Positions 7,332 to 36,194 of a stretch of 51,813 nucleotides of DNA are shown here, piece by piece. This DNA comes from Deltaproteobacteria bacterium (GTDB lineage Bacteria; Desulfobacterota; Deferrimicrobia; Deferrimicrobiales; Deferrimicrobiaceae). The stretch's first letter is position 1; each line of letters starts with the position of its first letter. The stretch spans positions 1 to 51,813 of the forward strand of contig JACRCO010000032.1 of NCBI GenBank assembly GCA_016218975.1, given 5' to 3'. The position numbers and the translations under genes were made by a program. Below the pieces are notes generated by a model. That model worked only from the letters and a program-made list of their open reading frames with translations. It made no database searches and was not told the DNA's origin.

Positions 7332-7332
7332 T

Positions 7333-9354: not shown

Positions 9355-9360
9355 GGATTC

Positions 9361-15779: not shown

Positions 15780-15850
15780 ACTTTTTTCCACAGGTTGTTG
15801 AAAAAAGTTCAGGAACGTCCCCGTTTTTAAGAGGAACGTCCCCGTTTTAA
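15761..15850. repeat. Palindromic repeat between coaE and ald
   Basis: Two 28-bp arms (15761-15788 and 15800-15827) are perfect inverted repeats around an 11-nt loop. A partial third copy of the outer arm (15832-15850, AGGAACGTCCCCGTTTTAA) follows in direct orientation. The transcribed hairpin could act as a bidirectional terminator, since each arm holds a run of T. The size and form resemble REP-type or other palindromic repeats that spread in bacterial genomes. It contains the stop codons of both convergent genes. Confidence 0.85.
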
Positions 15851-16963
15851 GGTAAGGAGCGTCTCCGGCTGCGTATACACCCTGCGGAGCGCCTTTGCCA
15901 CTCCTTCGCAGGTCACCTTTCCCCGGAAGGTGTTGAGCCCTGCCCGCAGCGCGGAATCCTTACACAATGCGCCCTCCACACCGTCGCGCGCCAGCGAAAC
16001 CACATAAGGGAGCGTCGCTGACACCAGCGCCGCGGTCGAAGTGCGCGGGACGGCCGCAGGCATGTTCGCGACGCAATAGTGCACCACCCCTTCCTCGACG
16101 AAATAGGGGGCAGCGTGCGTCGTCGGGCGGGAAGTTTCGAAAGACCCTCCCTGATCAATGGAAATGTCTACGACCGCCGCTCCCTTTTTCATCATCCGCA
16201 GCATTTCCCGGGATACGAGCACCGGCGCCTTGTCGCCGACCACAAGCACCGTCGAAATGACCAGGTCGGCTTCCGCTATTTCCGCCCGGATCGATTCCTG
16301 CGTGGAAAGGACGGTTCGTACCCCGGCCGGTATTTCACCGGCGGCGCGTACCAGTTTTTCGGCGGAGATGTCGAGGATCGTCACCGCCGCGCCCACTCCG
16401 GCGGCGACCCGCGCCGCGCTCCTGCCCGCGATGCCGGCGCCGATCACGAGGACGCGCGATGCGGGAACACCGCCTGCGCCCGACAGCAGGACCCCCCGCC
16501 CTCCGCAGGACTTCTCCAAAGCCCTCGCGCCTACCTGCACCGACAGGATCCCTGCCACCTCGCTCATGGGTTTCAAAAGCGGCAGCCGGCCTTCCACGGT
16601 AACGGTTTCGTACGCGATCGCCGTAACGCGACGGGCCAGCAACGCATCCGTAAGCTCCGGCAACGCCGCGAGGTGAAGATACGTGAACAGGGAAGTTTTT
16701 TCGGAAAGGAAGGGATACTCGGTTGTAACGGGTTCCTTTACCTTGACGACGAGGTCGGTATCCCAGGCTTCACGGGCCGAAGGGACGATCGCTCCGCCCG
16801 CTGCGGAATATTCATCGTCGGTGAACCCGCTTTCCAGCCCCGCGCCGGCCTGTACGATTACCGACGCACCGGCACGGCCAAGCGCATCCACCCCTTCCGG
16901 TGTCATTGAGACGCGGTTTTCTCCCGACTTTATTTCTTTCGGGATGCCGATCCGCAGGCTCAT
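15827..16963 (-). CDS. ald: Alanine dehydrogenase
   Basis: Reversible NAD-dependent conversion of L-alanine to pyruvate and ammonium, cytoplasmic. The protein has 378 aa, family length about 370. The N-terminus RIGIPKEIKSGENRVSMTPEG is the AlaDH/PNT signature. Substrate-binding Lys is in VKVKEP (about 76) and the catalytic His in YLHLA (about 97). The NAD-binding Rossmann segment is VLVIGAGIAGRSAARVA (about 170). The C-terminus LKRGRSS is encoded by the repeat at 15827-15850. The ATG overlaps the stop of the ADP-forming acyl-CoA synthetase by 4 bp, so the two are coupled and may act together in alanine use via pyruvate and acetyl-CoA (inference). Confidence 0.95.
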   Translation of the reverse strand: MSLRIGIPKEIKSGENRVSMTPEGVDALGRAGASVIVQAGAGLESGFTDDEYSAAGGAIVPSAREAWDTDLVVKVKEPVTTEYPFLSEKTSLFTYLHLAALPELTDALLARRVTAIAYETVTVEGRLPLLKPMSEVAGILSVQVGARALEKSCGGRGVLLSGAGGVPASRVLVIGAGIAGRSAARVAAGVGAAVTILDISAEKLVRAAGEIPAGVRTVLSTQESIRAEIAEADLVISTVLVVGDKAPVLVSREMLRMMKKGAAVVDISIDQGGSFETSRPTTHAAPYFVEEGVVHYCVANMPAAVPRTSTAALVSATLPYVVSLARDGVEGALCKDSALRAGLNTFRGKVTCEGVAKALRRVYTQPETLLTLKRGRSS

Positions 16964-18987
16964 GACTTCGAGTCTGCGGGAACCACCCGCGCATCGACGA
17001 TCGAAACCCCTTTTTCGTGTACGATGACCGGGTTAAGGTCAAGCTCCGCCATTTCGGGATGATCCGCGGCGAAAGCGGACACTTTCATCAGAAGTTCGCG
17101 AACCGCCGCCGTGTCCGAGGAAGCTCCGCCGCGATAGCCTTCGAGCAGTTTCGCGCCCCGTATCCCCGCAATCATTTCCTCCGCGTCCTTTTTCGCCAGC
17201 GGGACGATCCGCAAGGAAACATCCTCCATAGCTTCCACCAGGACGCCGCCCATGCCGAACATGACGGCAGGTCCGAACTGGAGGTCCCTCGCCACTCCGA
17301 CGATGACTTCCTTTCCCGGCTGCGCCATCGCGCTGACGACAACACCCTCGTCCCTCGCGCCAAATCGTTTCACGGCCTGGGCTATGCCCCGGCAGGCCCG
17401 CCGCACGCCTTCATCGTCCGCGATGCCGAGGAGCACTCCCCCTATATCGCTCTTATGCGTAATATCCGGAGAGTTCACCTTCACCGCGACGGGATAGCCG
17501 ATTTTCCTTGCCGCCCTGACGGCCTCCTCCTCGTTCCGCGCGTGCGCGAACGGTACGACGGGAAACCCTGCGTCCGACAGGAGCCGCATGGAGTCCGCCG
17601 GGGCGAGGGCCTTTCCACCTGCCTCTCCGCTCCGCGCGTCAGGCGTCTTCCCCGCCTCCAGCGGGAAGGTTTCCCGCCGGAACCGCGCATGACACGCAAG
17701 GGCGCGCACCGCCCGCTCGGGAGTGGGAAACACCGCTATCTTCTTTTCGTGTAGCAACACCCTTTCCGCGCGCTCGACATCGGCGCCGCCCAGGTAGGAT
17801 ACAAGTTCGCACCTACCCGGCGTGATCACATCGCAGGCGCCCGGGATCGGGTCGCCGAATATGGGCATGACCACGTCGTAATGTCCGGCCGCAGCTTCGA
17901 GGACTTTCCTGTACCTTGCTGCGTCGGTGTCTCCGGTGAGATCCAGCGGGTTCCCCACGATGCAGTGGGAAGGCAGCAACTCCCTCAAGCGCGCCGCAAG
18001 CCCGTCCGGCAACGGGGTCACGCGGAAACCTTCCTCCTCCGCCACGTCGGTGGCGATGATGGCGGATCCCCCCGAGCTTGTCACGATCAGCATACTTGGG
18101 CCTTCCGGCGGAGGCAGGTAGGCAAGCGACTTGGAAAAGTCGTAGAGGTCTTCCAGCGATTGCGCGCGATGGACTCCGAACTGCCGGAACACAGCGTCGT
18201 AGATCTCGTCCCTCCCCGCAAGCGAACGCGTATGGGATTCGGCCGCCTTCCTTCCCCGCTCGGTGCGTCCCGCCTTGAAGATCACCAAAGGCTTTCGGCA
18301 TTTCCCGACGGCCGCGAGGAACTTCGCCGCGTCCTTCACCCCTTCTATGTACAGGGAGATCACTTTCGTGTTCGGATCGCCCGCGAAGAATGCGATGAGG
18401 TCCGCCTCGTCGACATCGGCGCGGTTCCCCATGCTGACGAACGCGGAGAACCCGAGATGATCCTCCGAAGCCCAGTCGGCCATCGCCGCCCCGACCGTGC
18501 CGCTTTGGGATATGAAGGCGATGTCGCCTCTCCGGGTGATGAGCGGCCACGAGGCGCATACCCCGTGATAAGGGTAATTCACCCCCTGGCAATTCGGCCC
18601 TACGATGCGGATCCCGCACCGCGCGGCGTTGCGCGTCATCTCTTCCTGGATGGCTGCCCCCGCCTCCCCCGACTCCGCGAATCCCCCGCTGATGACGATG
18701 GCGGACCGGACCTTCCGCTCGCCGAGCTGGAGAATCGTCCCGGGGACTAGCTTTGCCGGTATGATGAGAACCGCCAGGTCGGTCCCCTCGGGAAGCTCCG
18801 ATGCGGACTTGAGCGAGATCCTGCCGAGCACTGTCTCGCCCTTGGGGTTGACCGGCAGGATTTCTCCCCGGAACCCCGCCTCGACGATGTTACGGAATAT
18901 CTGGAACCCCATTTTTTCCGGATTGGACGAAGCGCCGACGACCGCGATGCGTTCCGGGCGAAACAGGGGAACGAGGGAATCGGACAT
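16960..18987 (-). CDS. ADP-forming acyl-CoA synthetase (acetate--CoA ligase type, fused alpha-beta)
   Basis: Interconverts an acyl-CoA, ADP and phosphate with the free acid, CoA and ATP. The 675-aa protein fuses both subunits. The CoA-binding domain starts IAVVGASSNPEKMGFQIFRN (about 14). Succinyl-CoA-ligase-like domains contain RIVGPNCQGV and SQSGTVGAA. The phospho-His segment is AESHTRSLAGRDEIYDAVFRQFG (about 250); the family usually reads SHTGALAG, so Arg-Ser replaces Gly-Ala. The ATP-grasp domain (about 460-675) has GYPVAVKVNSPDITHKSDIGGV and the C-terminal AELDLNPVIV. It is coupled to ald, which suggests energy conservation from alanine-derived acetyl-CoA. Propionate or 3-hydroxypropionate specificity cannot be excluded. 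Confidence 0.92.
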   Translation of the reverse strand: MSDSLVPLFRPERIAVVGASSNPEKMGFQIFRNIVEAGFRGEILPVNPKGETVLGRISLKSASELPEGTDLAVLIIPAKLVPGTILQLGERKVRSAIVISGGFAESGEAGAAIQEEMTRNAARCGIRIVGPNCQGVNYPYHGVCASWPLITRRGDIAFISQSGTVGAAMADWASEDHLGFSAFVSMGNRADVDEADLIAFFAGDPNTKVISLYIEGVKDAAKFLAAVGKCRKPLVIFKAGRTERGRKAAESHTRSLAGRDEIYDAVFRQFGVHRAQSLEDLYDFSKSLAYLPPPEGPSMLIVTSSGGSAIIATDVAEEEGFRVTPLPDGLAARLRELLPSHCIVGNPLDLTGDTDAARYRKVLEAAAGHYDVVMPIFGDPIPGACDVITPGRCELVSYLGGADVERAERVLLHEKKIAVFPTPERAVRALACHARFRRETFPLEAGKTPDARSGEAGGKALAPADSMRLLSDAGFPVVPFAHARNEEEAVRAARKIGYPVAVKVNSPDITHKSDIGGVLLGIADDEGVRRACRGIAQAVKRFGARDEGVVVSAMAQPGKEVIVGVARDLQFGPAVMFGMGGVLVEAMEDVSLRIVPLAKKDAEEMIAGIRGAKLLEGYRGGASSDTAAVRELLMKVSAFAADHPEMAELDLNPVIVHEKGVSIVDARVVPADSKS

Positions 18988-20125: not shown

Positions 20126-20295
20126 CGCGACCCCCTTCCGCCGGAAGGTTGGTTCGCGAGTTGCCGCCCATATGCGCCGTTTACCGCAATTTTTATTATA
20201 TGATTCCGTAGAATCGATTTCAATTCACCTGAATCCTAAGAACAAAATATTTCCCCAGGACGCCAGGTGAACAACGAACCCGGAGGTAACAGAAA

Positions 20296-23058
20296 TTGAG
20301 CGGACCGACCCTCGCGCACGGCGGTTACTGGCCCCTTGGAGTTCTCCCCTGCCTCGAGATGGACATCCCCGAACGCATGCAGGCGATCACGATCCACCGC
20401 GAACGATACGGCCCCCCTTCGGAATCGTTGCGCATGGAGACCGTCGCCGCGCCGCGGCTTCGTCCGACGGATGCGAAAAAAGTCATCGTGGCCGTTCTGG
20501 CGACGGGCCCGAACTTCAACACGAACTTTGCGGCCCTCGGATTGCCCGTTCCCGTGTTCGGCCGCGGTGATTCGGCCGCGCTCCATATCCCCGGAAGCGA
20601 CGCCCTCGGCATTGTCGTTGACGCAGGCCCCGCTGTAACGCGCGTCAGGTCGGGGCAGGCGGTCATTCTCGACTCATGGACCGGCAGGAACATCCGCGGC
20701 TACGAAACCCATGACGGTTTCAACGCGCAATTCGTCGTTATCGAGGAAGATCGGGCGATCCCGGTCCCCGCGCCGTTGCGCGGATACACGCCGGAGCGGC
20801 TCGCAGCGATGATGCTCACCTTCGGCACGGCTTACCGCGCAGTTGTCGAGCGCCTTCGGGTTGCGCCGGGCGATTCGGTCCTCGTCATGGGCGGCGGCAA
20901 GGGGACCAGCTTCGCCGGGATACAGATCGCAAAAGCCCTCGGCGCCCGTGTACTCATCATGGGATCGAACCCCGAACTTGCCCGGTCGTTGATCGAACGG
21001 GGGATGGCCGATGCCTTCGTGAACCGCAGGGAAATTCCGGGAGAGGTCTTCGGCGTCGTTCCTTCCGGCGAGAGCCTCGATGAATGGGAAAAAAGGACGG
21101 AGCCGTTCCGCAGGAAGGTTTTCGAAGCGAACGGCGGGCGTCCCGTTGACGCGGTGTTCGAGCATACGGGCGGAGCCCTCTTCCCGCTGCTCGTTTCCGT
21201 CCTTTCGGATGACGGCAGGCTCGCCTTCTTCGGCGCAACGGGTGCGGGCCTTCGCGGCGAATACAAGGAGACGTTCTGGTACCGGGGACGCCGGTTCGCC
21301 ATGGATGCACGGTGGGTGTGGATGCGCCAGAAGCAGATCCTGTTCCGAAAGGGGAACCCGGATGCGATATTCGATGAAATCGGGCTGCTTCCCGGCCGCC
21401 GGGGGTTAATTTGGGGCGCCGATGCCTACGCCCGCAAGTTCGCCCGCGCCGCCCTGTCGCGGAAAGCCGAAATCGCCGTCATCGCTTCCTCGAAAACGGA
21501 AAAGCGGGGAATCGCGGAATTGCGGCGCATGGGGGTGCCGCCGAAGAATTTCCTCGACCGCGACGCCTTCGAATTCCCCGAGGACATGCCCGATCCCCTG
21601 ACCTCCGACGGCCGGCCGAATCCCGGGTACGCCTCCGGTTTCACGAAGCATGCGCAGGCCCTGGGCAAAGCGTTGTGGGGCATCTTCGGCTCCAGGGTCA
21701 GCCCGGACTTCGTAGTCGAGCGAACGGATCAAAGCACCCTCCACTTCAGTTCGTTCGTGCTTCGCGATTTCGATGAGGGAGATGCAATGCCCTCGGGGTA
21801 TATCGTTGTCCGCGGCGGAACGGACCTGTCCATCCTCGGGTCTCACATGTACAACTCCTCGCAGGCGGCGGAAGTCGTACGCCTTCTTGCGGGCGGAGGG
21901 CTGTCGATGGAGCAGGACGACCTGGAGATGACCGGGCTGGACGGCATCCCCGGGCTGCAGCAGCGCATGCTGGACGGCTCGATGACGAAACCCAAGGGGG
22001 TTGCGCTCGTCCAGGCCGATCGCCCGGGACGCACGATCGCGGATTGCGAGGATCGCTACCTCGGCGACGCTTTGCGCGCCCCCGATCCGCGTCAAAACCG
22101 TTTTCTCGGAATTCGCCTTGCGGGCGAGACCGCAGTTCTCTCGTTTCACCGCCCCGACGCATTGAATGCGCTCAGCGAGGAGGTGCTCTCGCAGTTAGCG
22201 GACGTTATCCGGGGAATCCGGGAATCCGGGACGATCGACGGAAAGACGGTGCGGGCGGTTATCCTCACCGGATCCGGAAGGTCTTTCGTGGCAGGCGCGG
22301 ACGTCAAGGAGTTCCTCGGCAAGAGCAGTGAAGAGATAGCGCGTCTCGCCGCGAAAAACATCGGCGTCTTCACGGAGCTGGAAAACCTCCCGGTGCCTGT
22401 TATCGCGGTGGTGGACGGTTTCGCGCTCGGCGGCGGCAACGAGCTCGCCATGAGCGCCCGATACCGGATCGTGACGGAAAACGCCAGCCTCGGACAACCG
22501 GAAGTGAAGCTCGGGATCATTCCCGGTTACGGAGGGATGCAGCGCCTTCCGCGCCTCGCGGGGCCGTGGAAAGCCGCGTCGATGTGCGTCAACGGCGAAC
22601 CCGTCGACGGCCACGCCGCCGTCGGGATGGGGCTTGCCGATGAATTCTGCAATTCGGCGGCCGCCCTCCCGCGCGCGATCCGGGTGGTGAAGGAGATACT
22701 CGAAGGTAAAAGGAAGGCGCCGAAGATCGATTGGGACGGCGCCGCGTCGCGGCAGAAGGCAGCCCTCGACCGCCTTCTCGGACTGCCGTCCGTGCGAGAC
22801 ATCCTTTCCGCTCCCGCCCCCGGCGCCGCCGAAGCCTCCGACCTGCGGGCCGCAAGGAGATTCGCCGCAAGGGTCGCCCTGCAGGCGATGATACACGGTT
22901 TCGAAAACGGCTTCGCGGCGGGTCTCGCGAACGACGCAGTGGCGTTCGGCGAGGCGGCCGCATCGGCGGGAGGGCAGGAATGGGTTCGCCGCTTCGTTGA
23001 GAAGGACCCTCGCCAATCGTCGTTTCTCACATTGCTGACACTTCCGGAGGAAGCATGA
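20296..23058 (+). CDS. Acrylyl-CoA reductase-like / enoyl-CoA hydratase fusion protein
   Basis: A 920-aa two-domain enzyme. Residues about 25-595 form a zinc-free MDR domain of the crotonyl-CoA/acrylyl-CoA reductase kind, with a nucleotide-binding loop VMGGGKGTSFAG (about 197) and the segments DAVFEHTGGALFPLL, EFPEDMPDPL and ILGSHMYNSSQA that resemble, from memory, the reductase domain of propionyl-CoA synthase. Residues about 600-860 are a crotonase domain with RPDALNAL, the oxyanion-hole AGADVKEF, and both catalytic Glu (Glu716 in GGGNELAMSA, Glu736 in GQPEVKLG). Expected chemistry: 3-hydroxyacyl-CoA dehydration and NADPH-dependent enoyl-CoA reduction without free intermediate. Propionyl-CoA synthase has the order ligase-hydratase-reductase; here the ligase is missing and the order is reversed. 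The start is TTG with GGAGGT eight nt upstream. The stop overlaps the next gene by 4 bp. Confidence 0.85.
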   Translation: MSGPTLAHGGYWPLGVLPCLEMDIPERMQAITIHRERYGPPSESLRMETVAAPRLRPTDAKKVIVAVLATGPNFNTNFAALGLPVPVFGRGDSAALHIPGSDALGIVVDAGPAVTRVRSGQAVILDSWTGRNIRGYETHDGFNAQFVVIEEDRAIPVPAPLRGYTPERLAAMMLTFGTAYRAVVERLRVAPGDSVLVMGGGKGTSFAGIQIAKALGARVLIMGSNPELARSLIERGMADAFVNRREIPGEVFGVVPSGESLDEWEKRTEPFRRKVFEANGGRPVDAVFEHTGGALFPLLVSVLSDDGRLAFFGATGAGLRGEYKETFWYRGRRFAMDARWVWMRQKQILFRKGNPDAIFDEIGLLPGRRGLIWGADAYARKFARAALSRKAEIAVIASSKTEKRGIAELRRMGVPPKNFLDRDAFEFPEDMPDPLTSDGRPNPGYASGFTKHAQALGKALWGIFGSRVSPDFVVERTDQSTLHFSSFVLRDFDEGDAMPSGYIVVRGGTDLSILGSHMYNSSQAAEVVRLLAGGGLSMEQDDLEMTGLDGIPGLQQRMLDGSMTKPKGVALVQADRPGRTIADCEDRYLGDALRAPDPRQNRFLGIRLAGETAVLSFHRPDALNALSEEVLSQLADVIRGIRESGTIDGKTVRAVILTGSGRSFVAGADVKEFLGKSSEEIARLAAKNIGVFTELENLPVPVIAVVDGFALGGGNELAMSARYRIVTENASLGQPEVKLGIIPGYGGMQRLPRLAGPWKAASMCVNGEPVDGHAAVGMGLADEFCNSAAALPRAIRVVKEILEGKRKAPKIDWDGAASRQKAALDRLLGLPSVRDILSAPAPGAAEASDLRAARRFAARVALQAMIHGFENGFAAGLANDAVAFGEAAASAGGQEWVRRFVEKDPRQSSFLTLLTLPEEA

Positions 23059-26000
23059 GCGGCGATATGCCGATAACGAAGAAAGCTCCCGGGGACCGCC
23101 ATATCGGCGCCGATGAGATAGAAAGCATCGCCGGCCTTATCCGCGAGAAAGAGGCGGAGGGAAAGGTCTTCGATCTTCCGCAGGCGGCATTGAAAGAGAT
23201 CCTGTTCCTCCTTCGCGGGCACCGGTTTCCCGCTGCGACCGCTTCCATATTTCCGGCCGGCGCGGGCAACGCTTCGGAAAACGCCGCGCGCATTCTAAGG
23301 AAAGGAGAGATAGGAGTCTCGATCGTCGACCTCGACGAACGGACCGGGTTTCCCCGGGATAACGCACGTCCGACCTGCGAGGTCCTGCTCGTCCGTAAAG
23401 GGAGCGAGATCCTTTGGGCGGGGAAAAAGCGGTTTCCCGACGTGGACGGCGCTTCGCCCTGCATCTTCATCACGAAAGCGTTTCTCTCGAAGACGCGGCA
23501 GAACCCGCGCCTTCTTCTTCAGGCGATCCTGCACCCGATCCTCGAGTGGGCCTTCGGCCTGCCGCACATGGCGGCGGTGCTTTGCGAGTCGGCCTTCAAC
23601 GCTTCGCCTCCGTCCCCGGACGGCACCGACATCAGCGACCTGAACCGCTTCATCGCCGGGGAAGCGGGCCGCGACCGGGACTTCGCCTACTTCGACCGCA
23701 TCCTCGGAGCTTCCTACGAACCGGACGAGTTCCGGATGGAGGAACTTGCGGCGGCGTACGGGACGGACGAACGAAGGATCGGCGAGGTGGTCTCCCTCGC
23801 ACGGGCGATGGGCGCAAGGTACCGGGAGCACGTGGAAACGGTCCTGAAAGAGACGCGCGGAGAGATAGCCCGCGAACGCGTGGCCCAGGGAAGGAAAGCC
23901 CTGGAGGAGGGAAACACCGACGACGCATTGGAGATACTTCGGAAGATGGCCCTTTCGCAGGATACCCCGGAGAGCTCGCGGGAGGAGATCTCCGGGCTGA
24001 TCGCCATCGCCATCCGGTCGCATGCGCTCGATGCCGACCCGGGGTACGAAGGGCTCCGCATGGAGAAAGGCGAGATCCTTGCGGAACCATGGGCGGGGAG
24101 GAAAGCAAGGGAACTCGCATCGCTGCTCGGCGCCGCCGCGGAGGTGGTCCGTGGCCGGCAGGAAGCCCTCGGCGGCGACACCGGCACGGACCCGTTGGCG
24201 GAGAAAGGCAGCCCCAGGAGCATCCACGTCATCTCCGATCTCGAGCGGCCCAGTGCGAAGTTCATCGACGGCCATGGACGCGTGCACTGGGTATTCGAAA
24301 AATCGTTCATCGAATCGTTGGGCCGGGAAATGACGTCAGGAAACTTTCCGGAAGGGATTCCGGCCATCCTGGCTTGCCGGTTCGTCCGCGACGGAGCATT
24401 CCCCGATGAAAAACTCAATATAGACAAACAGTTCGGGGTGGCGGTAAAGGGCGCGCTCGAGGGCTACCGGTTCTTCCAGTCCCTGACCGCCGATACCCGG
24501 CGCCTGATGGCGGCCTACTATGAAGCCACCGGCATGGAGGACCCTCTTTACCGCCTGTTCGTCTCGCTCGGCGAAGAGACGAATCCAGCCCGCGCAAGCC
24601 ACCTCATCCGCCGCGCCGTCTCGGTAACCCATTCCTATAACTATGTCCGGTATCCCGATACGTCGCTCGCCGGACAGGTCGTAGTCGTCACGGGAGGGGG
24701 AACCGGGATGGGGAGGGCGATCGCGCTCGAAGCCGCCGGGCGCGGGGCGAACGTCGTCATAACGGGACGGCGGCCCGCGCCGCTCGAGGAGACGCGCGCG
24801 GACATCGAAGACCTGATCCGTTTCCTCGGGTTGACGAACCGGACACTGATCGTGCAGGGAGACTTGAGCGATCCCAAGTACGTCGGCGAGATGTTCGAGC
24901 GGATCGAACGGGAATTCGGCAGGATCGACCTCCTCTACAACAACGCGGGCGTATCGGGGCCTGTGGAATTCGGCTCCGCATACCGGGAGGAGCATTTCGA
25001 CCAGTACCGTGAGGCGATGAATATCCACCTTACGGGGGCATGGCTCGCCAGCCTCGAGGCCGCACGCCTGATGGAAACCAGGCCCCGCGGCGGCGTGATC
25101 GTCATGGTCGGGACCTTCTACAGCGAGAGCATCCACCGCCACGTGCTTCACGCCTACCCCGGCCGGCTTCCGTACACCTCCGCGCAATCCGCCAAGCTTG
25201 CCCTGGGCGATTATCTCGCCTGGATGCTCGCCGAAAAGAACATCTCCGTCCTGTCCCTCAACCCCGCGGCTGTGGCTACAGACCGTATCCGGAAAGGCTC
25301 CGGCGTCTTCGACAAGGGGTCGCAGGCGCGCGCCCGCATCGGGCGCAAGGTATCTCCCGAGACGCTGGAACGGGACACTCTCGACCGCACGGTAGGCCGC
25401 GAATTCGTCCATCCCAGGCATTTCGCGAGGGTAGCGCTCGAAGTCCAGCACGTCGCCTTCCGGCGCACCATAGGGGGGCACCGCCTTCCGATGGGAGGCG
25501 TTACCTACGAGCAGCCGCCGGCCGTGCTGCCATCCCCCGCCGCGCTTTCGCGATACCCGGACTTCGCAGGAAAGGTGGCGCTGATTGCGTTGCACTCCTG
25601 CTCCGGCGGGGACGGACCGCTCATCGAAGCGTCCGCGAAAGCGCTGGCCCGCGCGGGAGGGAACGTCGTCCTCGCCGGAGGCCGGACGGACGAACTCGAG
25701 GAACTCGCCCACCGGATAAATTCCAGCGGCGGCGACGGGACGGCGACCGTTTATCCCGCGGACCTTTCCCGCCAGGCGGAAGTGCAGGAACTCTTCGACA
25801 GCCTCCCCCGAATCGATCTCCTTCTTCATTTCACCGGAAGCGTGGACTGGAAGCGCCCTCTATCCCGATATCCTTTCGAAGAGTGGAGCGGATGCGTCGA
25901 CCGGTTCGGATTTATCCCCCGGCTTCTCTGCTGGCAGGCCGAGCGAAGGATGGACCGCGACGGAGTCGACGGTACGATCGTCATCGTGGGACCGGACCTC

Positions 26001-28049
26001 TCCGGCGTTCCCTCCCTGCGGGAACGGCTTCTCGTGCAGGTTTTCCAGGCGATGCTGCGCCCGGCAGTCGCAACCGAGTCGATGGAACGCGCCCTTATGA
26101 GGAAGGCGCAGGACGACGGCACGTCCCCGTCGCACGTAAGCGACATCAACATCGGCCTGATCCTTCCCGGCAGGACGGACGGAAGGAACAAGGCCGCCGG
26201 CGCCGCGAGGACGGCCGCTACGGTTCTTTGGCTCCTTGAAGAGGGAAAAATCGTATCGGGAGCGGTCCTCCTCCCCGACGAGAAGAACGCGACCGCACGC
26301 CTGCCGGAGGAACCACTGGAAGCGCCCGGCTCGATGGCAGGGAAGGTAGTCGTGGTGACCGGTGGCATCCGGAACCTCGGCAGGGAAATATCGCTGCGGT
26401 TCGCCGCGGAACATGCGACCGTGGTGGCTGCAAGCCGGCATCCGCGCTCGACCGGCCAGACCGCCGAGGAAACGGAAAAGGCCCGGAAGGAGCTGTCGGC
26501 GGCCGACGCCGCGCTTGCCGCCATGCGCCGTGCGGGAGGACGCACGCTCTGGATCGATACGGACGTCTCCAGCCACCGGAAAGTGCGAGCCCTCATCGAG
26601 GAAACGCGGAACCGCTTCGGCAGGATCGACGCGTTCGTGAACAATGCGGGGGCGGGCGGGGATTTCTCCCCGGTCGGAGAGGTCCTCCGCGACCACCGGC
26701 CGAGCTGGGACGCCGTCCTGAGAAGCAATTTCCTCGGACCCTGGACGGCGGTATCAATCCTCCGGGACATCATGAAGAACCAGCCCGGCGGCGGTACTAT
26801 AGTGAACGTGTCCACGTATTACGCCGATCATCCGTACCTGTTCCGGACGATCTACACGGTATCCAAGATCCTTCTCAAGGCCTTGACGCTCGCGCTCCGG
26901 AAACGCCTCGGTGAAGAAAACATCCGGATCGCGGACGTCGCCCCCAGCCTTATCGCGGGACCGCGGATGGATTGGGTGATGAAGAATTACGCCGGCAAAT
27001 TCGCGGAGCGCCTGGGTTCGCTGCGCGACCTCAAGGGAGCCGAGAGCGGGTCTCTCCAGGAACGCTTCCTCCGCTCCTTCGACCGCTCCCTCTCCCCCCG
27101 GGAACGTGAAAGCGCGTCGAAGGCCTTTCTCGCCGGCATCCGCGAGAGCAGCCTGCCGAAGGGGAGGCGCGCGGAATTGGAGGAATGGTTCGGACGTATC
27201 GGGGACTGGTTCCCGGCAACGGTCCCGGGCGACCCGCCCGCGAACGAGCAGGTGGCGGATGCCGTGCTCTATGCAGCGAAGAACTGCCGCTTCCTCGATG
27301 ACCGATTCCTTGAGGTTTCCACCATGGGCTCCTTTTCGACGTTCCCCGGGGAATGCCCTGCCAGGAAGGAACGTATTTCCGGGGAATCATACCAATTCCT
27401 TTCTCTCGGCATACCGCCGGTAACCTATACCGTGCCGGCGGATGCACTCAAGGAGCGCGGCGCGGCGATCACTTCCCTTGCCGAGGATCCATCGAATCCG
27501 GGACAGGTGGCGATCTCCCGGCCGGCGTACGGCGCACCCTCATCGGCGAAGCGCCGGCCCGCCGAAACGATCCGGCGGGACCTGGACCTTTCGGATCCCC
27601 GCTTGCTGGAACCCTGGCTGGACAATACACTCATCGGCGGCTCTCCGCCCGCCGGCGCGGTGGCTGCATTGGGAACGACGACCGCGGGCAAACCGATCCT
27701 GTCCTTCGGACCGGAGGAAAAAGATGGATTCCTCCTGCACCTGAGCAAGGTCCTGAACGTCATCGCCGGGTCTGCGAACGCGGTCCGCGACAACGGTCAC
27801 GTAATCGTTGCGGTCCCTCCGGGGGATTCGGAGGAAGGACTTCTCGTTCGCGCCGCCGCGAGGCAAATGGTGCGAACCCTTCTCGCGGAGCAGCATTTCC
27901 TCCCCGGCGGTAAAACGCTGCGCGTGAGCCTCCTCACCTCTCACCGCGGCGCGGAAGAGAAATCATTCCACCAGCGCATTATCGATATCCTCTCGGGCAA
28001 CTCCCCTCCCGAAGTCGAACCGATCCCGGTCGGGCACCTCCGGCCGTAA
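23055..28049 (+). CDS. Giant multi-SDR protein, malonyl-CoA-reductase-like, with unknown N-terminal domain
   Basis: A 1664-aa protein without signal peptide. Residues 1-525 are not recognised; they include a helix-rich, charged central part. Four Rossmann-type segments follow. SDR-A (about 535-830) has TGGGTGMG, NNAG and YTSAQ at 707-711, where the catalytic Lys of YxxxK is Gln. SDR-B (about 835-1095) has no glycine-rich motif or YxxxK. SDR-C (about 1097-1440) is complete: TGGIRNLG, NNAG, Ser1253, Tyr1267 and Lys1271. SDR-D (about 1500-1664) is degenerate. The alternating active/degenerate layout and the long helical insert in SDR-C resemble the Chloroflexus malonyl-CoA reductase (about 1200 aa), which lacks the N-terminal 525 residues. 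The ATG (GGAGG upstream) overlaps the hydratase-reductase stop by 4 bp. Specificity is a hypothesis. Confidence 0.75.
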   Translation: MSGDMPITKKAPGDRHIGADEIESIAGLIREKEAEGKVFDLPQAALKEILFLLRGHRFPAATASIFPAGAGNASENAARILRKGEIGVSIVDLDERTGFPRDNARPTCEVLLVRKGSEILWAGKKRFPDVDGASPCIFITKAFLSKTRQNPRLLLQAILHPILEWAFGLPHMAAVLCESAFNASPPSPDGTDISDLNRFIAGEAGRDRDFAYFDRILGASYEPDEFRMEELAAAYGTDERRIGEVVSLARAMGARYREHVETVLKETRGEIARERVAQGRKALEEGNTDDALEILRKMALSQDTPESSREEISGLIAIAIRSHALDADPGYEGLRMEKGEILAEPWAGRKARELASLLGAAAEVVRGRQEALGGDTGTDPLAEKGSPRSIHVISDLERPSAKFIDGHGRVHWVFEKSFIESLGREMTSGNFPEGIPAILACRFVRDGAFPDEKLNIDKQFGVAVKGALEGYRFFQSLTADTRRLMAAYYEATGMEDPLYRLFVSLGEETNPARASHLIRRAVSVTHSYNYVRYPDTSLAGQVVVVTGGGTGMGRAIALEAAGRGANVVITGRRPAPLEETRADIEDLIRFLGLTNRTLIVQGDLSDPKYVGEMFERIEREFGRIDLLYNNAGVSGPVEFGSAYREEHFDQYREAMNIHLTGAWLASLEAARLMETRPRGGVIVMVGTFYSESIHRHVLHAYPGRLPYTSAQSAKLALGDYLAWMLAEKNISVLSLNPAAVATDRIRKGSGVFDKGSQARARIGRKVSPETLERDTLDRTVGREFVHPRHFARVALEVQHVAFRRTIGGHRLPMGGVTYEQPPAVLPSPAALSRYPDFAGKVALIALHSCSGGDGPLIEASAKALARAGGNVVLAGGRTDELEELAHRINSSGGDGTATVYPADLSRQAEVQELFDSLPRIDLLLHFTGSVDWKRPLSRYPFEEWSGCVDRFGFIPRLLCWQAERRMDRDGVDGTIVIVGPDLSGVPSLRERLLVQVFQAMLRPAVATESMERALMRKAQDDGTSPSHVSDINIGLILPGRTDGRNKAAGAARTAATVLWLLEEGKIVSGAVLLPDEKNATARLPEEPLEAPGSMAGKVVVVTGGIRNLGREISLRFAAEHATVVAASRHPRSTGQTAEETEKARKELSAADAALAAMRRAGGRTLWIDTDVSSHRKVRALIEETRNRFGRIDAFVNNAGAGGDFSPVGEVLRDHRPSWDAVLRSNFLGPWTAVSILRDIMKNQPGGGTIVNVSTYYADHPYLFRTIYTVSKILLKALTLALRKRLGEENIRIADVAPSLIAGPRMDWVMKNYAGKFAERLGSLRDLKGAESGSLQERFLRSFDRSLSPRERESASKAFLAGIRESSLPKGRRAELEEWFGRIGDWFPATVPGDPPANEQVADAVLYAAKNCRFLDDRFLEVSTMGSFSTFPGECPARKERISGESYQFLSLGIPPVTYTVPADALKERGAAITSLAEDPSNPGQVAISRPAYGAPSSAKRRPAETIRRDLDLSDPRLLEPWLDNTLIGGSPPAGAVAALGTTTAGKPILSFGPEEKDGFLLHLSKVLNVIAGSANAVRDNGHVIVAVPPGDSEEGLLVRAAARQMVRTLLAEQHFLPGGKTLRVSLLTSHRGAEEKSFHQRIIDILSGNSPPEVEPIPVGHLRP

Positions 28050-28092: not shown

Positions 28093-29433
28093 GTGACCGA
28101 GCTGGCTCTCGCGCGCGCCCAGATGGCGATGATGTTCGCGTTCCACATCGTCTTCGCCGTCGCCGGAATGGGAATGCCGCTGCTCATGGTGATAGCCGAA
28201 GCGGCCCACCGGAGGACGGGAAAACCTGTGTTCCTCGAGCTGGCGAAGCGTTGGGCGCGCGGGACCGCCGTCCTCTTCGCGGTCGGGGCAGTTTCCGGGA
28301 CCGTCCTCTCATTCGAACTCGGCCTGCTTTGGCCCGGGTTCATGGCGTTCTCCGGCGGGATCGTCGGTCTCCCCTTCGCCCTCGAGGGATTCGCCTTTTT
28401 CGCGGAGGCGATATTCCTGGGGATCTACCTTTACGGCTGGGGGCGCGTTTCACCGGGTGCGCACATTCTTGCGGGGATCGGCGTGGCGCTCGGGGGCCTG
28501 GCATCCGGGATACTCGTGGTGTCCGCGAACGCCTGGATGAACAGCCCCGCGGGTTTCCTCCTCGTCGATGGAAAGGCTACGGCCGTGGATCCTCTCGCCG
28601 CAATGGCGAATCCTGCCTGGGCTACCGAAGCGGTCCACATGTCGCTGGCCGCATTTGCGGCTTCGGGCTTCGCGGTCGCGGGAATCCATGCATATAAGCT
28701 CCTTGGCGACCGGGAGAATCTCTTTCACCGCCATGCCCTCTCCATCGCCCTGTGGGTGGGGGGAACGGCCGCCGTCCTGCTTCCCGTCAGCGGGGACTTC
28801 AATGCGCGTTTTCTCGCGAAGGACCAGCCGTCGAAACTCGCCGCCATGGAAGGCCAGTTCCGCACCCAGCGCGGCGCGCCCCTGCGCATCGGTGGAATCC
28901 CCGACGCGCGAAGCGGCACGACGAGGTTCGCGATCGAGATCCCGAAGGCGTTGAGCCTGCTCGCTTTCCATGACGCGGATGCCGAGGTCAAGGGTCTCGA
29001 TGCGTTTCCGCGGGAGGAATGGCCCGATCCCCTTCTCGTTCACGCCGCCTTCCAGGCCATGGTGGCCTGCGGAACTGCGATGGCAGTGCTCGCGCTGTCA
29101 GCCGGGCTTCTGGCGTGGAGGGCGAGGGAGAATCTGCTCCATCCGAGGTTTCTGCTCGCCGTGCTCGTTTCAAGCCCCCTGGGGATCGTCGCGGTGCAGG
29201 CGGGATGGTGCGTCACCGAGCTCGGCCGCCAGCCATGGGTCATACGCGGTGTGATGAAGACCGCCGACGCCGTCACTCCCGTCGGCGGCCTGGCGCTTCC
29301 CTTCGCATTTTTCTCCCTGCTGTACCTGGCCCTGGGAATTTCGGCCGCCTGGCTTCTCAGGAGAGAGGTATCGAGGAGCCCCTCGTTTCCCGCATCTGAT
29401 GAAAGACCGCCGGTTCGCGGGGGGGAGGGATAA
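28093..29433 (+). CDS. cydA: Cytochrome bd-type quinol oxidase subunit I
   Basis: Inner-membrane haem subunit that oxidises quinol and reduces oxygen with high affinity. The 446-aa protein has about nine membrane segments. Haem ligand His is in FAFHIVFAVAGMG (about 18), a second in VHMSLAAF (about 183), and the conserved GRQPWVIRGVMKTADAVTP motif is near residue 377. The quinol-binding Q-loop is short, as in the cyanide-insensitive/short-loop class. It starts with GTG, preceded by GGGAGGT. A TAGAAT box just upstream may be its own promoter, but the -35 is poor. cydB follows after 1 bp. Confidence 0.96.
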   Translation: MTELALARAQMAMMFAFHIVFAVAGMGMPLLMVIAEAAHRRTGKPVFLELAKRWARGTAVLFAVGAVSGTVLSFELGLLWPGFMAFSGGIVGLPFALEGFAFFAEAIFLGIYLYGWGRVSPGAHILAGIGVALGGLASGILVVSANAWMNSPAGFLLVDGKATAVDPLAAMANPAWATEAVHMSLAAFAASGFAVAGIHAYKLLGDRENLFHRHALSIALWVGGTAAVLLPVSGDFNARFLAKDQPSKLAAMEGQFRTQRGAPLRIGGIPDARSGTTRFAIEIPKALSLLAFHDADAEVKGLDAFPREEWPDPLLVHAAFQAMVACGTAMAVLALSAGLLAWRARENLLHPRFLLAVLVSSPLGIVAVQAGWCVTELGRQPWVIRGVMKTADAVTPVGGLALPFAFFSLLYLALGISAAWLLRREVSRSPSFPASDERPPVRGGEG

Positions 29434-29434
29434 A

Positions 29435-30457
29435 ATGCACGACCTTTCCCTCCTTGCGGCAGGGGCCATCCTCGCATCCCTGATCCTGTACGCGCTGCTC
29501 GGCGGCGCCGATTTCGGGGGAGGCGTTTGGGACCTGCTTTCCCGCGGGCCGCGCAGCCCCGCCCACAGGGCCCTCATCGCGCAGGCCATCGGCCCCATAT
29601 GGGAGACGAACCATATCTGGGTCATCGTCGCGGTGGTGATCCTGTTCACGGGATTTCCGCACGCGTTCGCTCTCGTCTCCACAGCCCTGTTCCTTCCGGT
29701 GACATTGCTGCTTGCGGGGATCGTCCTGCGTGGGGCGGCGTTCGCGTTCCATTCCTACCACCTTCACGACGAGGAGGGGGAGAGAAGGCGCTGGGGGCTT
29801 GTTTTCGCCGGCTCGAGCCTCATCACGCCGCTCCTCCTGGGCGTCGTGATCGGCGCGGTCTCCTCCGGAGGCATACGCGCTGCGGAAGCGGCCGCATTCG
29901 GAGCCTCCCGGGCATGGCTCGCTCCCTTCCCGATCTCGGTAGGGTTCCTCACCCTGTCGGTCTTTTCCTACCTCGCGGCTGTGTACCTGATCTTCGAAAC
30001 GGACGATCCCGCCCTGCGGGAAGACTTCCGCCTTCGCGCCCTTTGGTCGTCGGCGGCAGTCGGGGTCCTGATGGTCATCGTACCGTTGCTGGCCCGGCGC
30101 GGCGCCCAGGATTTCCATCATTCCCTGTTGGGGAGCGACTGGTCGCCGGGGCTCGTTTTCCTTGCCGCCACCGCCGCGCTCGGCGCCCACGTGTCGCTGC
30201 TTCTTCGGTCCTATCCCGTTGCACGAATCTGCGCCGCCGCACAGGCGGTCATCATCCTGGCCGGCTGGGGAGCCGCGCAATATCCGTTCCTCGTCCGCCC
30301 CGACGTCACCGTCCCCGCCGCGGCGTCCCCGCAGGCGACGCTGCGTTTTCTCCTGATCGCGCTCGCGGCCGGCGGCATGTTCCTCTTCCCCGCGATCGGC
30401 TGGCTCTTCTGGGTGTTCAAGAAGGACGCCGTTTTCGGCCGCACCCGCAACCCTTAG
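29435..30457 (+). CDS. cydB: Cytochrome bd-type quinol oxidase subunit II
   Basis: Partner membrane subunit of CydA. The 340-aa protein has about eight membrane segments, the N-terminal GGADFGGGVWDLL motif and the conserved GPIWETNHIWVIVAVVILFTGFP (about 50-72). The ATG at 29435 has GGGGAGGG upstream and starts 1 bp after the cydA stop. No cydX-like small subunit or cydDC is visible downstream. About 40 bp after its stop begins the 182-bp inverted-repeat element. Confidence 0.95.
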   Translation: MHDLSLLAAGAILASLILYALLGGADFGGGVWDLLSRGPRSPAHRALIAQAIGPIWETNHIWVIVAVVILFTGFPHAFALVSTALFLPVTLLLAGIVLRGAAFAFHSYHLHDEEGERRRWGLVFAGSSLITPLLLGVVIGAVSSGGIRAAEAAAFGASRAWLAPFPISVGFLTLSVFSYLAAVYLIFETDDPALREDFRLRALWSSAAVGVLMVIVPLLARRGAQDFHHSLLGSDWSPGLVFLAATAALGAHVSLLLRSYPVARICAAAQAVIILAGWGAAQYPFLVRPDVTVPAAASPQATLRFLLIALAAGGMFLFPAIGWLFWVFKKDAVFGRTRNP

Positions 30458-31648: not shown

Positions 31649-32356
31649 CTACCCCCCCAGGTATGCCTCCCGGACTTTAGGCTCATTCTGCAATTCGGCG
31701 GCATTCCCCTGCAAGACGATATTCCCCGCCTCCAGCACGTACGCCCTGCCGGCGATCGCCAGCGCCATGGAAGCGTTCTGCTCCACCAGCAGGATGGCGA
31801 CGCCTTTGCGGTTCACCTCTTCGATCATGTCGAATATCTCCCCCACCAGGAAGGGAGAAAGGCCCATCGAAGGCTCGTCCAGCAGCATCAGCGCCGGCCT
31901 GGCGACCATGGCGCGGCCGATCGACAGCATCTGCTGCTCCCCGCCCGAAAGCGTGCCCGCGACCTGCCTGGATCGTTCTTTCAGCCTCGGGAACAGCGAA
32001 TAGACCTGCTCCATGTCTTTCCTTACTTCCTGCGCGGATTTCCTGGTGTATCCCCCCAGCTCCAGGTTCTCCGAAACCGTCATGTTGGCGAATACGCCCC
32101 GTCCTTCGGGAACGTGGGCTATGCCCATCCTGGCGATCCTGTGCGGCGGCTTGCCGGTTATGTCCGCCCCTCCGAACAGGACCCTTCCCATGCGCGGTGA
32201 AACGACTCCGGAGACGGCCTTCAATACGGTGGATTTTCCCGCTCCGTTCGCGCCGATCAGCGAAACGATTTCCCCTTTGCCCACTTCAAGTGAAAGATCT
32301 CGCAACGCCGGCATGCTTCCGTAATATACGCTTATTTTATCTATAATTAGAATCAA
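31649..32356 (-). CDS. livF: Branched-chain amino acid ABC transporter, ATP-binding protein LivF
   Basis: One of two ATPases of the Liv importer. The 235-aa protein has Walker A GANGAGKST (about 36), signature LSGGEQQMLSIGRAM (about 133) and Walker B LMLLDEPSMGLSP. The segment FDMIEEVNRKGVAILLVEQNASMALAIA is typical of LivF. The start is TTG at 32356, with AAGG seven nt upstream. The first codons are unusually A/T-rich (ATT CTA ATT ATA), unlike the rest of the gene, which may keep the start site free of structure. Confidence 0.95.
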   Translation of the reverse strand: MILIIDKISVYYGSMPALRDLSLEVGKGEIVSLIGANGAGKSTVLKAVSGVVSPRMGRVLFGGADITGKPPHRIARMGIAHVPEGRGVFANMTVSENLELGGYTRKSAQEVRKDMEQVYSLFPRLKERSRQVAGTLSGGEQQMLSIGRAMVARPALMLLDEPSMGLSPFLVGEIFDMIEEVNRKGVAILLVEQNASMALAIAGRAYVLEAGNIVLQGNAAELQNEPKVREAYLGG

Positions 32357-32365
32357 TTTCCGACC

Positions 32366-33151
32366 TTATCCATTAAGTTCCGGGTCGCGTTTGAAACCCC
32401 GGCCGAGATACGCTTCGATAACCCGGCGGTCGTTCCGTATTTCTTCGGGCGTCCCTTCGGCGATCACCGTACCGAAATCAAGCACGATCAGCCGTTCGCA
32501 TATCCCCATCGCGAGCCTCATCTGGTGCTCGATCAGCAGGATCGACAGGCCGAAACGCTTCCTGATTCCCGTGAGAAATTCCATCAACGCCCTTACTTCC
32601 GACGGATTCATGCCCGCGGCGGGTTCGTCGAGAAGAAGCACTTTCGGCCGGGTGGCGAGCGCCCTTGCGATTTCAAGCCTGCGCTGATCCCCGTAAGGAA
32701 GGCTGCCGGCGAGGTCGTCCTTCCGTACCTGGAGCGAAAACATGGACAGCAGGTCCATGGCCTTTTCCCGCAGCTCCCTTTCTCCCTCGTCGTATCTCCC
32801 CGCGCGGAACAGTGCCGAATACAGGCCGTACGGCGCGCCGGGATGGAGAGCCGTGCGCACATTGTCCATGACCGTGAGGTTCCGGAAGAGGCGGATGTTC
32901 TGGAATGTGCGTGCGATCCCCATCGCCAGGATGCGGTGGGGGGCAAACCCGGATATCGTCTTCCCGGAAACCGCAACCGTGCCTTCGTCCGGCCGGTAGA
33001 TACCGGTCACTACGTTGAACACCGTGGTCTTACCGGAACCGTTCGGCCCGATCAGCCCTGCAAGTTCTCCCTCGCGCAGGCGCAGGTCCACGCCCGACAA
33101 CGCCATTATGCCGCCGAAATGTTTCGTGATGCCCTTGACCTCGAGCATCAT
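32366..33151 (-). CDS. livG: Branched-chain amino acid ABC transporter, ATP-binding protein LivG
   Basis: Second ATPase of the Liv importer, 261 aa. It has Walker A GPNGSGKTTVFNVVTG (about 39), Walker B LLLDEPAAGMNPSE, and the LivG-type ARTFQNIRLFRNLTVMDNV loop. The C-terminal GTPEEIRNDRRVIEAYLG is typical of the family. The ATG at 33151 forms an ATGA overlap with the livM stop codon. The longer open frame upstream is the shadow of livM. Confidence 0.96.
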   Translation of the reverse strand: MMLEVKGITKHFGGIMALSGVDLRLREGELAGLIGPNGSGKTTVFNVVTGIYRPDEGTVAVSGKTISGFAPHRILAMGIARTFQNIRLFRNLTVMDNVRTALHPGAPYGLYSALFRAGRYDEGERELREKAMDLLSMFSLQVRKDDLAGSLPYGDQRRLEIARALATRPKVLLLDEPAAGMNPSEVRALMEFLTGIRKRFGLSILLIEHQMRLAMGICERLIVLDFGTVIAEGTPEEIRNDRRVIEAYLGRGFKRDPELNG

Positions 33152-34122
33152 CCCTCCGTTCCGTCCCGGAAAAACCGGAACTCCCGGAATCCGAACAGGC
33201 CCTGCGGGCGAAGAAGCATCGTCACGATCAGGAGGACCGGGATCAGCACCCAGCGGAATTCGATGAATTCGGAGGGGAGAACGACCCTCAATACCTCCAG
33301 CAGGAAGATCCATCCGAAGGATGCGACCAGCGTGCCGCTGATGTTTCCGAGGCCGCCGAGAACGACGATCACCAGGACGTCGACCGATTTGAAGAAATCG
33401 AAATTGCCGGGATGAAGGAAGGTGTACAGGTGCGCGTAGAGGCCGCCCGCCATGCCCGCCAGGCCGCAGCCGGCGACGAATCCCGCCAGCTTGTACAGGA
33501 ACGTGTCTATGCCGACCGATTCCGCCGCGATTTCGTCTTCCCGGATCGAAACGAGCGCCCTGCCGAAACCGGAGCGGACGAGGTTTCTCACCGCGACCGC
33601 GACGATCCATAGGGAGGCGACGCACCACGCGGCGTTGGTCATCTTCGCGATGCCCGTCATTCCCCTCGCGCCGCCCGCCATCGGAAGGAAGCTGTCGGCG
33701 TTGTCGAACAGCACTTTCATGATGATGCCGAATCCTAAAGTGGCGATGCCCAGATAATCCGACGTCAGCCGCAGCACGGGAAGGCCGACAAGCAAAGCGA
33801 CCGCCGCCGCGCCTGCAGTGCCGGCAGCCAGCGAAACAAGGAAGACCGCCTGCGATTCCCCGCCGGCGGATTTCATCACGCACGCCGCGGTATAGGCGCC
33901 GATCCCGTAGAAAGCGGCGTGACCCAGCGAAAACAGGCCGGTGAACCCGTAGATCAGGTTCAACCCCAACGCCGAGATGGACATGATGCAGGCAAGCTGG
34001 AAGATCTGGATCCAGTACGGATTGACGATGCCGGTCGCTTCCAGAAGGTATCCCGCCGCCGCCGCGGCCGCAAAGGCAGCGGCATTCCGTGCGAAGGATG
34101 CGATGCGTCCGGCGCCGGTCAA
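33148..34122 (-). CDS. livM: Branched-chain amino acid ABC transporter permease LivM
   Basis: Inner-membrane permease, 324 aa with about nine to ten hydrophobic segments. The signature ALGLNLIYGFTGLFSLGHAAFYGIGAYTAA (about 52-80) and SIREDEIAAESVGIDTFLYKL (EAA-like loop, about 195-215) identify LivM. It overlaps livH by 4 bp and livG by 4 bp. The C-terminus RPQGLFG is typical. Confidence 0.96.
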   Translation of the reverse strand: MTGAGRIASFARNAAAFAAAAAAGYLLEATGIVNPYWIQIFQLACIMSISALGLNLIYGFTGLFSLGHAAFYGIGAYTAACVMKSAGGESQAVFLVSLAAGTAGAAAVALLVGLPVLRLTSDYLGIATLGFGIIMKVLFDNADSFLPMAGGARGMTGIAKMTNAAWCVASLWIVAVAVRNLVRSGFGRALVSIREDEIAAESVGIDTFLYKLAGFVAGCGLAGMAGGLYAHLYTFLHPGNFDFFKSVDVLVIVVLGGLGNISGTLVASFGWIFLLEVLRVVLPSEFIEFRWVLIPVLLIVTMLLRPQGLFGFREFRFFRDGTEG

Positions 34123-35003
34123 ACCTTTTCCGTCCGCCGGACGCCGAGGATCCCCGTGGGGCGCAACAACAGGACGGCGATCAGGATCACGAAGGCGATT
34201 CCGTCACGGTAAGTGGAAGACAGGTACGCGGCGGTAAGGGTTTCCGATTGCCCCATGATGAGTGCCCCCAGCACCGCCCCCGGAATGCTTCCGATGCCGC
34301 CGAGCACGGCCGCGGTGAAAGCCTTGAGGCCCGGCATGACTCCCATGAAGGTATTGATCTGCGGATATGCGATGCCGTACAGAACGCCTCCCACCCCCGC
34401 CAGTGCGGCCCCGAGCCCGAACGTGAACGAAATCACCATGTTGACGTTCACACCCATCAACCCCGCCGTCACATGGTCGTAAGAGACCGCCCGCATCGCC
34501 TTCCCCATGCGGGTCCGGAATACGACGAACTGGAGGATCGCAAGGCAACAGAGCGTCACCGCGAAGATAATAACCTGGATGTTGGTCAGTGATACCCCGC
34601 CCGCTTCCCATGAGGTGACGGGAAACGGCCTCGGGAAAGAGTAGTAATTCGGGCCGAAGACCTGCCGCAGCGACGTGAAGTATTCCAGGAACAGCGACAT
34701 GCCGATGGCGGTGATAAGGGACGCGATCCTTGGCGCTTCACGCAGGGGCCGGTAGGCGACCCGCTCCATCGCGACCGCCACGAGGGCGCACCCGAATACG
34801 GCAAGGAGGAAGACGGCGGGAAGGGGCAGGCCGAATTTTTCGATCGCGTACAGGCCGAGGAACGCGCCCACCATGAAGACATCGCCGTGGGCGAAATTGA
34901 TCAGCCTGACGATGCCGTACACCATGGTGTATCCGAGGGCGATCAGCGCATAAACGAATCCTGTCTGAAGACCGTTAAGAAACTGTTGAAGAAAGTATTC
35001 CAC
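34119..35003 (-). CDS. livH: Branched-chain amino acid ABC transporter permease LivH
   Basis: Second permease, 294 aa, with about eight membrane segments. Hallmarks are FLNGLQTGFVYALIALGYTMVYGIVRLINFAHGDVFMVGAF near the N-terminus and MRAVSYDHVTAGLMGVNVN (EAA-like loop). The C-terminus LLLRPTGILG matches LivM-type ends. The start is GTG at 35003, 12 bp after the livK stop. It forms the channel with LivM. Confidence 0.96.
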   Translation of the reverse strand: MEYFLQQFLNGLQTGFVYALIALGYTMVYGIVRLINFAHGDVFMVGAFLGLYAIEKFGLPLPAVFLLAVFGCALVAVAMERVAYRPLREAPRIASLITAIGMSLFLEYFTSLRQVFGPNYYSFPRPFPVTSWEAGGVSLTNIQVIIFAVTLCCLAILQFVVFRTRMGKAMRAVSYDHVTAGLMGVNVNMVISFTFGLGAALAGVGGVLYGIAYPQINTFMGVMPGLKAFTAAVLGGIGSIPGAVLGALIMGQSETLTAAYLSSTYRDGIAFVILIAVLLLRPTGILGVRRTEKV

Positions 35004-35015
35004 ACGGGTTCACCG

Positions 35016-36149: not shown

Positions 36150-36194
36150 GGGACCCTCCATCCCCTGGACGGATTGAGAGCGATTCATCCCCTT

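Follow-up and report, generated by a model that had tools for sequence, protein, structure and literature searches.

A conserved gene pair resembling propionyl-CoA synthase and malonyl-CoA reductase in an uncultured deltaproteobacterial class

Organization of the gene pair

We analysed contig JACRCO010000032.1 of a Deltaproteobacteria bacterium (assembly GCA_016218975.1); the whole stretch of 51,813 nucleotides is referred to as the window. Two adjacent genes on the plus strand, called P1 and P2, are the subject of this report. P1 (positions 20296-23058) encodes a protein of 920 residues in which a reductase of the medium-chain dehydrogenase/reductase (MDR) type is fused to a crotonase, as indicated by the open reading frame (ORF), Pfam matches, the best PDB match (6eqo) and orthologs. 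P2 (23055-28049) encodes a protein of 1664 residues in which an N-terminal region precedes four domains of the short-chain dehydrogenase/reductase (SDR) type, as indicated by the ORF, Pfam and fold matches. Both ORFs lie where the initial annotation had placed them, and the ATGA overlap that it described is seen in the sequence, which reads gcATGAgc at 23055-23058.

P1 starts at a TTG codon, with GGAGGT located 8 nt upstream (20282-20287), and the similarity of its orthologs runs to residue 1; the start is therefore acceptable as given. P2 orthologs are 59-80% identical and contain no internal stops, which rules out chance as the origin of the pair. P1 and P2 are real, conserved genes.

Features of P1

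MDR (ADH_N, ADH_zinc_N) and crotonase (ECH_1, E=1.4e-42) domains are both detected in P1 by Pfam. The MDR module (20365-22065, residues ~24-590) consists of a core similar to crotonyl-CoA carboxylase/reductase (Ccr), followed by a C-terminal extension of the type present in propionyl-CoA synthase (PCS). The crotonase, or enoyl-CoA hydratase, module (22102-23010, residues ~603-905) retains both catalytic glutamates, as had been annotated. These residues (within GGGNEL and GQPEVKLG) are invariant in 7 orthologs, as is a PGYGG loop that is also found in PCS. By hand count, the tyrosine of this loop falls at the position of Tyr142 in the Metallosphaera 3-hydroxypropionyl-CoA dehydratase (Ms3HPCD), a residue that shapes a small pocket (PMC6048173). 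A phenylalanine follows the AGADVKE stretch of the P1 crotonase.

The top solved relative of P1 is PCS (6eqo, E 1.1e-47), which confirms PCS as the right comparison. The match extends over two stretches and includes both modules. Crotonase residues 617-904 are aligned to residues 911-1203 of 6eqo, and MDR residues 36-492 to residues 1265-1729, a stretch that also takes in the C-terminal extension following the Ccr core. P1 and PCS thus share a crotonase and an MDR with the same extension on one chain. They differ in the order of domains, which is ligase-crotonase-MDR in PCS and MDR-crotonase in P1, and in the ligase part, which is absent from P1; Pfam detected no AMP-binding domain in either P1 or P2. 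Phylogenetic analysis of the MDR domain and of the crotonase domain placed P1 apart from the PCS clade each time, with long deep branches of weak resolution. The reversed order, the missing ligase and the position in the trees support the earlier suggestion of a separate evolutionary assembly.

When the MDR part is considered alone, the top score is obtained against Ccr (4gi2), with ~33% identity over ~350 residues of the core; P1 adds to this core the C-terminal extension and the crotonase. The score of P1 against the Ccr model TIGR01751 is about half the cut-off (195.8 versus 378.55 bits), and assignment of the MDR module as a carboxylase was rejected on this ground. The stretch that follows MRQK in P1 (ILFRKG) also seems unlike the GSH motif of carboxylating Ccr enzymes.

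Features of P2

The N-terminal region of P2 (23055-24644, residues 1-530) is conserved and was not recognized. It matches no Pfam family at E<0.01, TPR matches being sub-threshold only, and its structural model (pLDDT 66) has no PDB fold match at E<0.1. This region of ~530 residues had been missed in the initial description of P2 as a four-SDR protein. In the remainder, Pfam finds repeated SDR matches.

SDR1 (24663-25529, residues ~537-825) features T687 and the motif Y701-x-x-R704-x-x-Y707, and has Gln711 in place of the catalytic lysine. SDR2 (25551-26318, residues ~833-1088) is degenerate and matches only generic SDRs. SDR3 (26328-27344, residues ~1092-1430) features NNAG, T1254 and the motif Y1261-x-x-R1264-x-x-Y1267-x-x-x-K1271, and thus carries the complete set T1254-Y1267-K1271. 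The C-terminal SDR4-like domain (27372-28046, residues ~1440-1664) is degenerate. The predicted order of active, degenerate, active and degenerate domains is therefore only partly right, as the triad is complete in SDR3 and the lysine is lost in SDR1. SDR1 keeps the nucleotide-binding glycines along with T687 and Y707, and ranks among the best-conserved parts of P2, which argues against a mere remnant. The possibility that Y707 and K714 form a FabI-type Tyr-x6-Lys pair was rejected. By hand count, the tyrosine and the strand after it are spaced as in ordinary SDRs, so that the residue at the catalytic position is most probably the glutamine rather than a lysine.

The best solved matches of P2 by sequence are malonyl-CoA reductases (MCR; 8hjw and 8hi4). 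Residues 515-1664 were modelled with modest confidence (pLDDT 60, pTM 0.46), and the model was compared with the PDB using Foldseek. MCR structures occupy all of the top 24 places, with alignments over ~1,311 columns for those of full length; this rank may in part reflect the fact that MCR is itself a four-SDR chain. SDR2 lies inside the MCR-like model, and the SDR4-like domain is part of the full-length alignment. In MCR, both catalytic SDRs contain a YxxRxxY motif, and Tyr172 and Arg175 coordinate malonate semialdehyde (PMC10470521). The same motif is conserved among orthologs in SDR1 (YPGRLPY) and SDR3 (YLFRTIY). It reads YPGRLPYTSAQ in SDR1 (25155-25187), where the lysine is lost, and YLFRTIYTVSK in SDR3 (26835-26867), where the catalytic lysine is present. 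YxxRxxY is absent from all 29 further SDRs compared from the class, many of which are FabG-like. MCR was thus the correct comparison for P2, by sequence, fold and motif.

For the SDR domains taken singly, profile scores do not clearly distinguish MCR from ordinary SDRs. The SDR3 profile scores 85.6 bits against MCR-N and 85.9 bits against glucose dehydrogenase, and SDR1 scores 45 bits against MCR and 82 bits against a FabG-like SDR. Only generic SDRs are found with the SDR2 profile; VIA-align likewise listed generic SDR matches, which hold no MCR information. SDR4 has no PDB sequence match. The assignment of SDR2 and SDR4 as putative MCR counterparts comes from the architecture and the moderate-confidence model. 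A suggestive feature is that the halves of P2 may be swapped relative to MCR, as SDR1 has an MCR-C-like long loop and a GGxxYExxP end and SDR3 is MCR-N-like; this idea is contradicted by a long helical insertion in SDR3 (~1305-1410). A search for MCR-like proteins on plasmids yielded none.

Such scores, which are not specific for MCR, and the unrecognized N-terminal region of P2 would also fit proteins that act on a different, aromatic or longer-chain acyl-CoA, the likeness to MCR and PCS being that of generic SDR, MDR and crotonase folds. The presence of YxxRxxY in SDR1 and SDR3, MCR as the top fold over the full length and PCS as the top match of P1 argue otherwise, and we regard this explanation as decidedly improbable.

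Relation to known enzymes

P2 resembles the bifunctional MCR of Chloroflexus and Roseiflexus (8hjw, 8hi4) in having four tandem SDR-type domains, the first and third of which carry cofactor and substrate motifs, including YxxRxxY in both. Unlike MCR, P2 has the extra N-terminal region, a glutamine in place of the SDR1 lysine, so that the triad is complete in only one of the two domains, and an SDR4 unrecognizable by sequence. It is also joined or coupled to an MDR-crotonase protein. Because one MCR feature (the second lysine) and three PCS features (a ligase on the same chain, the domain order and membership of the PCS clade) are lacking, the pair was placed in neither family. The arrangement of P1 and P2 was not found described in the literature searched. 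MCR- and PCS-type enzymes have been reported from Chloroflexota, Actinobacteriota and Proteobacteria (PMC9802188).

Distribution and fusion

The class is represented by 26 genomes, of which 16 have a P1 ortholog and 13 have P2. Outside the class, no P2 turned up in the phylum sample. Relatives that bear names derive mostly from 'Deltaproteobacteria' metagenome-assembled genomes (MAGs), two of which are from groundwater by name. The locus of a public MAG called 'Actinomycetota bacterium CoA_1_bin.34' (L015) is 77% identical and has the same neighbours; the label is probably wrong.

P1 and P2 form one uninterrupted ORF at five loci (L014, L017, L018, L019 and L029), and are split in the window and in others. 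The fused ORF measures 2,614-2,690 codons in the four complete cases, L029 being cut by a contig end. The fused state requires at least two changes on the P2 tree, and fusion in several lineages argues for channelling between the two proteins.

A candidate ligase

An ADP(NDP)-forming acyl-CoA synthetase, assigned by Pfam, is encoded on the minus strand (16960-18987), divergently adjacent to P1. It is related to 3-hydroxypropionate--CoA ligase but misses the cut-off of that model (NF045492, 436 versus 1300 bits), and is a member of the broader family of NDP-forming acyl-CoA synthetases. The synthetase could provide in trans the ligase step missing from P1. An ortholog at ≥70% identity is present in all 16 P1 genomes and in 1 of the 10 others (Fisher p=3e-6); when weaker orthologs are counted, 3 of the 10 genomes without P1 have one (p=2e-4), and both values are optimistic because the genomes are related. 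The gene is retained even where it is unlinked, as fused lineages other than L014 have it elsewhere in the genome. In genus g7, it occurs only in the one species that carries P1 and P2.

A different role for the two proteins may be envisaged here, in which externally supplied 3-hydroxypropionate or acrylate is used by P1 with the adjacent ligase, and P2 acts as a carbonyl reductase through SDR3 only, from malonate semialdehyde to 3-hydroxypropionate, with no thioester reduction. SDR1 without lysine would fit such a role, as would genomes that carry P1 and the ligase and lack P2. A plasmid of Haladaptatus, in which a stand-alone MDR of the P1 type is located near an ADP-forming ligase and enoyl-CoA hydratases and no MCR-like gene was found beside the MDR, points the same way. 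The strong conservation of SDR1 and the channelling favoured by the P1/P2 fusions speak against this role, which we hold to be improbable.

An alanine dehydrogenase gene (15827-16963) overlaps the synthetase gene by four bases; in most relatives, it is kept next to either the synthetase gene or P1.

Genomic and metabolic context

Methylmalonyl-CoA mutase is present in all P2 genomes. In the window's genome, a carboxyltransferase gene lies about 2 kb from one mutase copy (G000 contig C9). The same genome encodes a PCS-like giant protein with its own ligase (G000 contig C1, L067:2839-10551), which is found at a length of 2514-2571 residues in several genomes of the class. Its order is crotonase, AMP-forming ligase, MDR and crotonase, and its gene adjoins LivH/LivK-type genes. 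The MDR precedes a crotonase in both P1 and the giant, and the shared modules are ~27-33% identical; the ligase and the extra N-terminal crotonase are absent from P1. Since a rearranged PCS-like protein is found in the same genome, the class seems to have assembled such modules more than once.

In genome G127, which has P1 and no P2, a gene for a CoA-acylating methylmalonate-semialdehyde dehydrogenase (L064:5065-6576; TIGR01722, 698 bits) adjoins P1, pointing to a probable link with semialdehyde chemistry. A complete branched-chain-type ABC transporter (LivKHMGF) is encoded downstream in the window (31649-36188, minus strand). It is kept downstream in most relatives, and its substrate could hint at the role of the module. 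The dehydrogenase and the transporter would suit a branched C4 pathway from methylmalonyl-CoA via methylmalonate semialdehyde, 3-hydroxyisobutyrate, 3-hydroxyisobutyryl-CoA and methacrylyl-CoA to isobutyryl-CoA. The YxxR motif would bind any beta-carboxylate, and the genome already contains the PCS-like giant for C3 substrates. Yet the pocket residues of the P1 crotonase fit C3 enzymes, and the transporter forms a separate operon that may be unrelated; we give the C4 pathway little probability.

Immediately after P2 come cytochrome bd oxidase genes (28093-30457), which in some genomes lacking P2 are found after P1. They are conserved and probably have a separate function. Minor pilins of a type IV pilus and a PilY1-like protein of 1320 residues are encoded at 6765-13323 on the minus strand.

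Proposed function

P1 and P2 may be the two halves of one reductive acyl-CoA line, which in some relatives is encoded as a single polypeptide of ~2,600 residues. Gene structure, homology, motifs, fusion and ligase co-occurrence are seen in the sequences; the substrate, the direction, the order of steps and the physiological role are inferred, as follows. Starting from a malonyl-type CoA thioester, SDR pairs of the MCR type in P2 would form the semialdehyde and then the 3-hydroxy acid; which SDR takes which step is only provisionally assigned. The separate ADP-forming synthetase would join CoA to 3-hydroxypropionate. The P1 crotonase would dehydrate 3-hydroxypropionyl-CoA to acrylyl-CoA, which the MDR would reduce with NADPH to propionyl-CoA. 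Conversion to succinyl-CoA would follow through propionyl-CoA carboxylase and methylmalonyl-CoA mutase, and acetyl-CoA could thereby be assimilated without the glyoxylate shunt. The comparisons with MCR and PCS behind the C3 activities first proposed were apt, and malonyl-CoA is the presumed substrate. To this C3 line, from malonyl-CoA through 3-hydroxypropionate and propionyl-CoA to succinyl-CoA with the ligase in trans, we assign slightly less than an even chance.

Several observations weigh against it. Gln711 replaces the YxxxK lysine of SDR1 in every ortholog that covers the position intact. As this lysine is essential in MCR (PMC10470521), activity of SDR1 is doubtful, and the domain would be either unconventional or inactive. 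Scored singly, SDR1 and SDR3 do not appear to favour MCR over ordinary SDRs. Pairing of P1 and P2 is not constant. P1 occurs without P2 in five genomes, with the same neighbourhood in three of the four inspected. G226 (L066, contig C57) carries P2 and no P1, and the surroundings of the gene are quite different, with an HmcB-like gene; the SDR1 part of this P2 contains a frame break close to an ambiguous base, which is probably an assembly fault. Because each occurs without the other, the two modules are separable. The duplicate role of the PCS-like giant needs explaining, and the relatedness of the genomes tempers the co-occurrence of the synthetase. Isocitrate lyase is found in none of the 13 P2 genomes and in 3 of the 13 others, a difference that is not significant (p=0.22).

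A stronger form of the proposal is that one polypeptide of ~2,600 residues, split in the window, performs all the reductions and the dehydration from malonyl-CoA to propionyl-CoA, only CoA ligation being separate. Such a polypeptide would have been assembled independently as the equivalent of MCR and PCS, would contain a lysine-less SDR, and would serve acetate assimilation or an anaplerotic role. We put this form forward tentatively, as rather unlikely.

MCR and PCS are the hallmark of the 3-hydroxypropionate bicycle, and have found use in synthetic carbon fixation and in 3-hydroxypropionate production. If the proposal is true, a line that combines the two activities on a single polypeptide, and leaves ligation to a protein acting in trans, would constitute a new channelled enzyme. 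The rearranged order and divergent domains would then help to account for routes of this kind being overlooked, as they may be, by standard profile searches. In a published genome analysis of the candidate phylum MBNT15, none of the key enzymes of 3-hydroxypropionate pathways was reported (PMC9386147). The lineage may be MBNT15, as hinted by habitat and by the names of MAGs; if so, a propionyl-CoA-forming route would be added to that phylum. For the uncultured 'deltaproteobacterial' class, the gene pair would represent a new acetate-assimilating or anaplerotic route.

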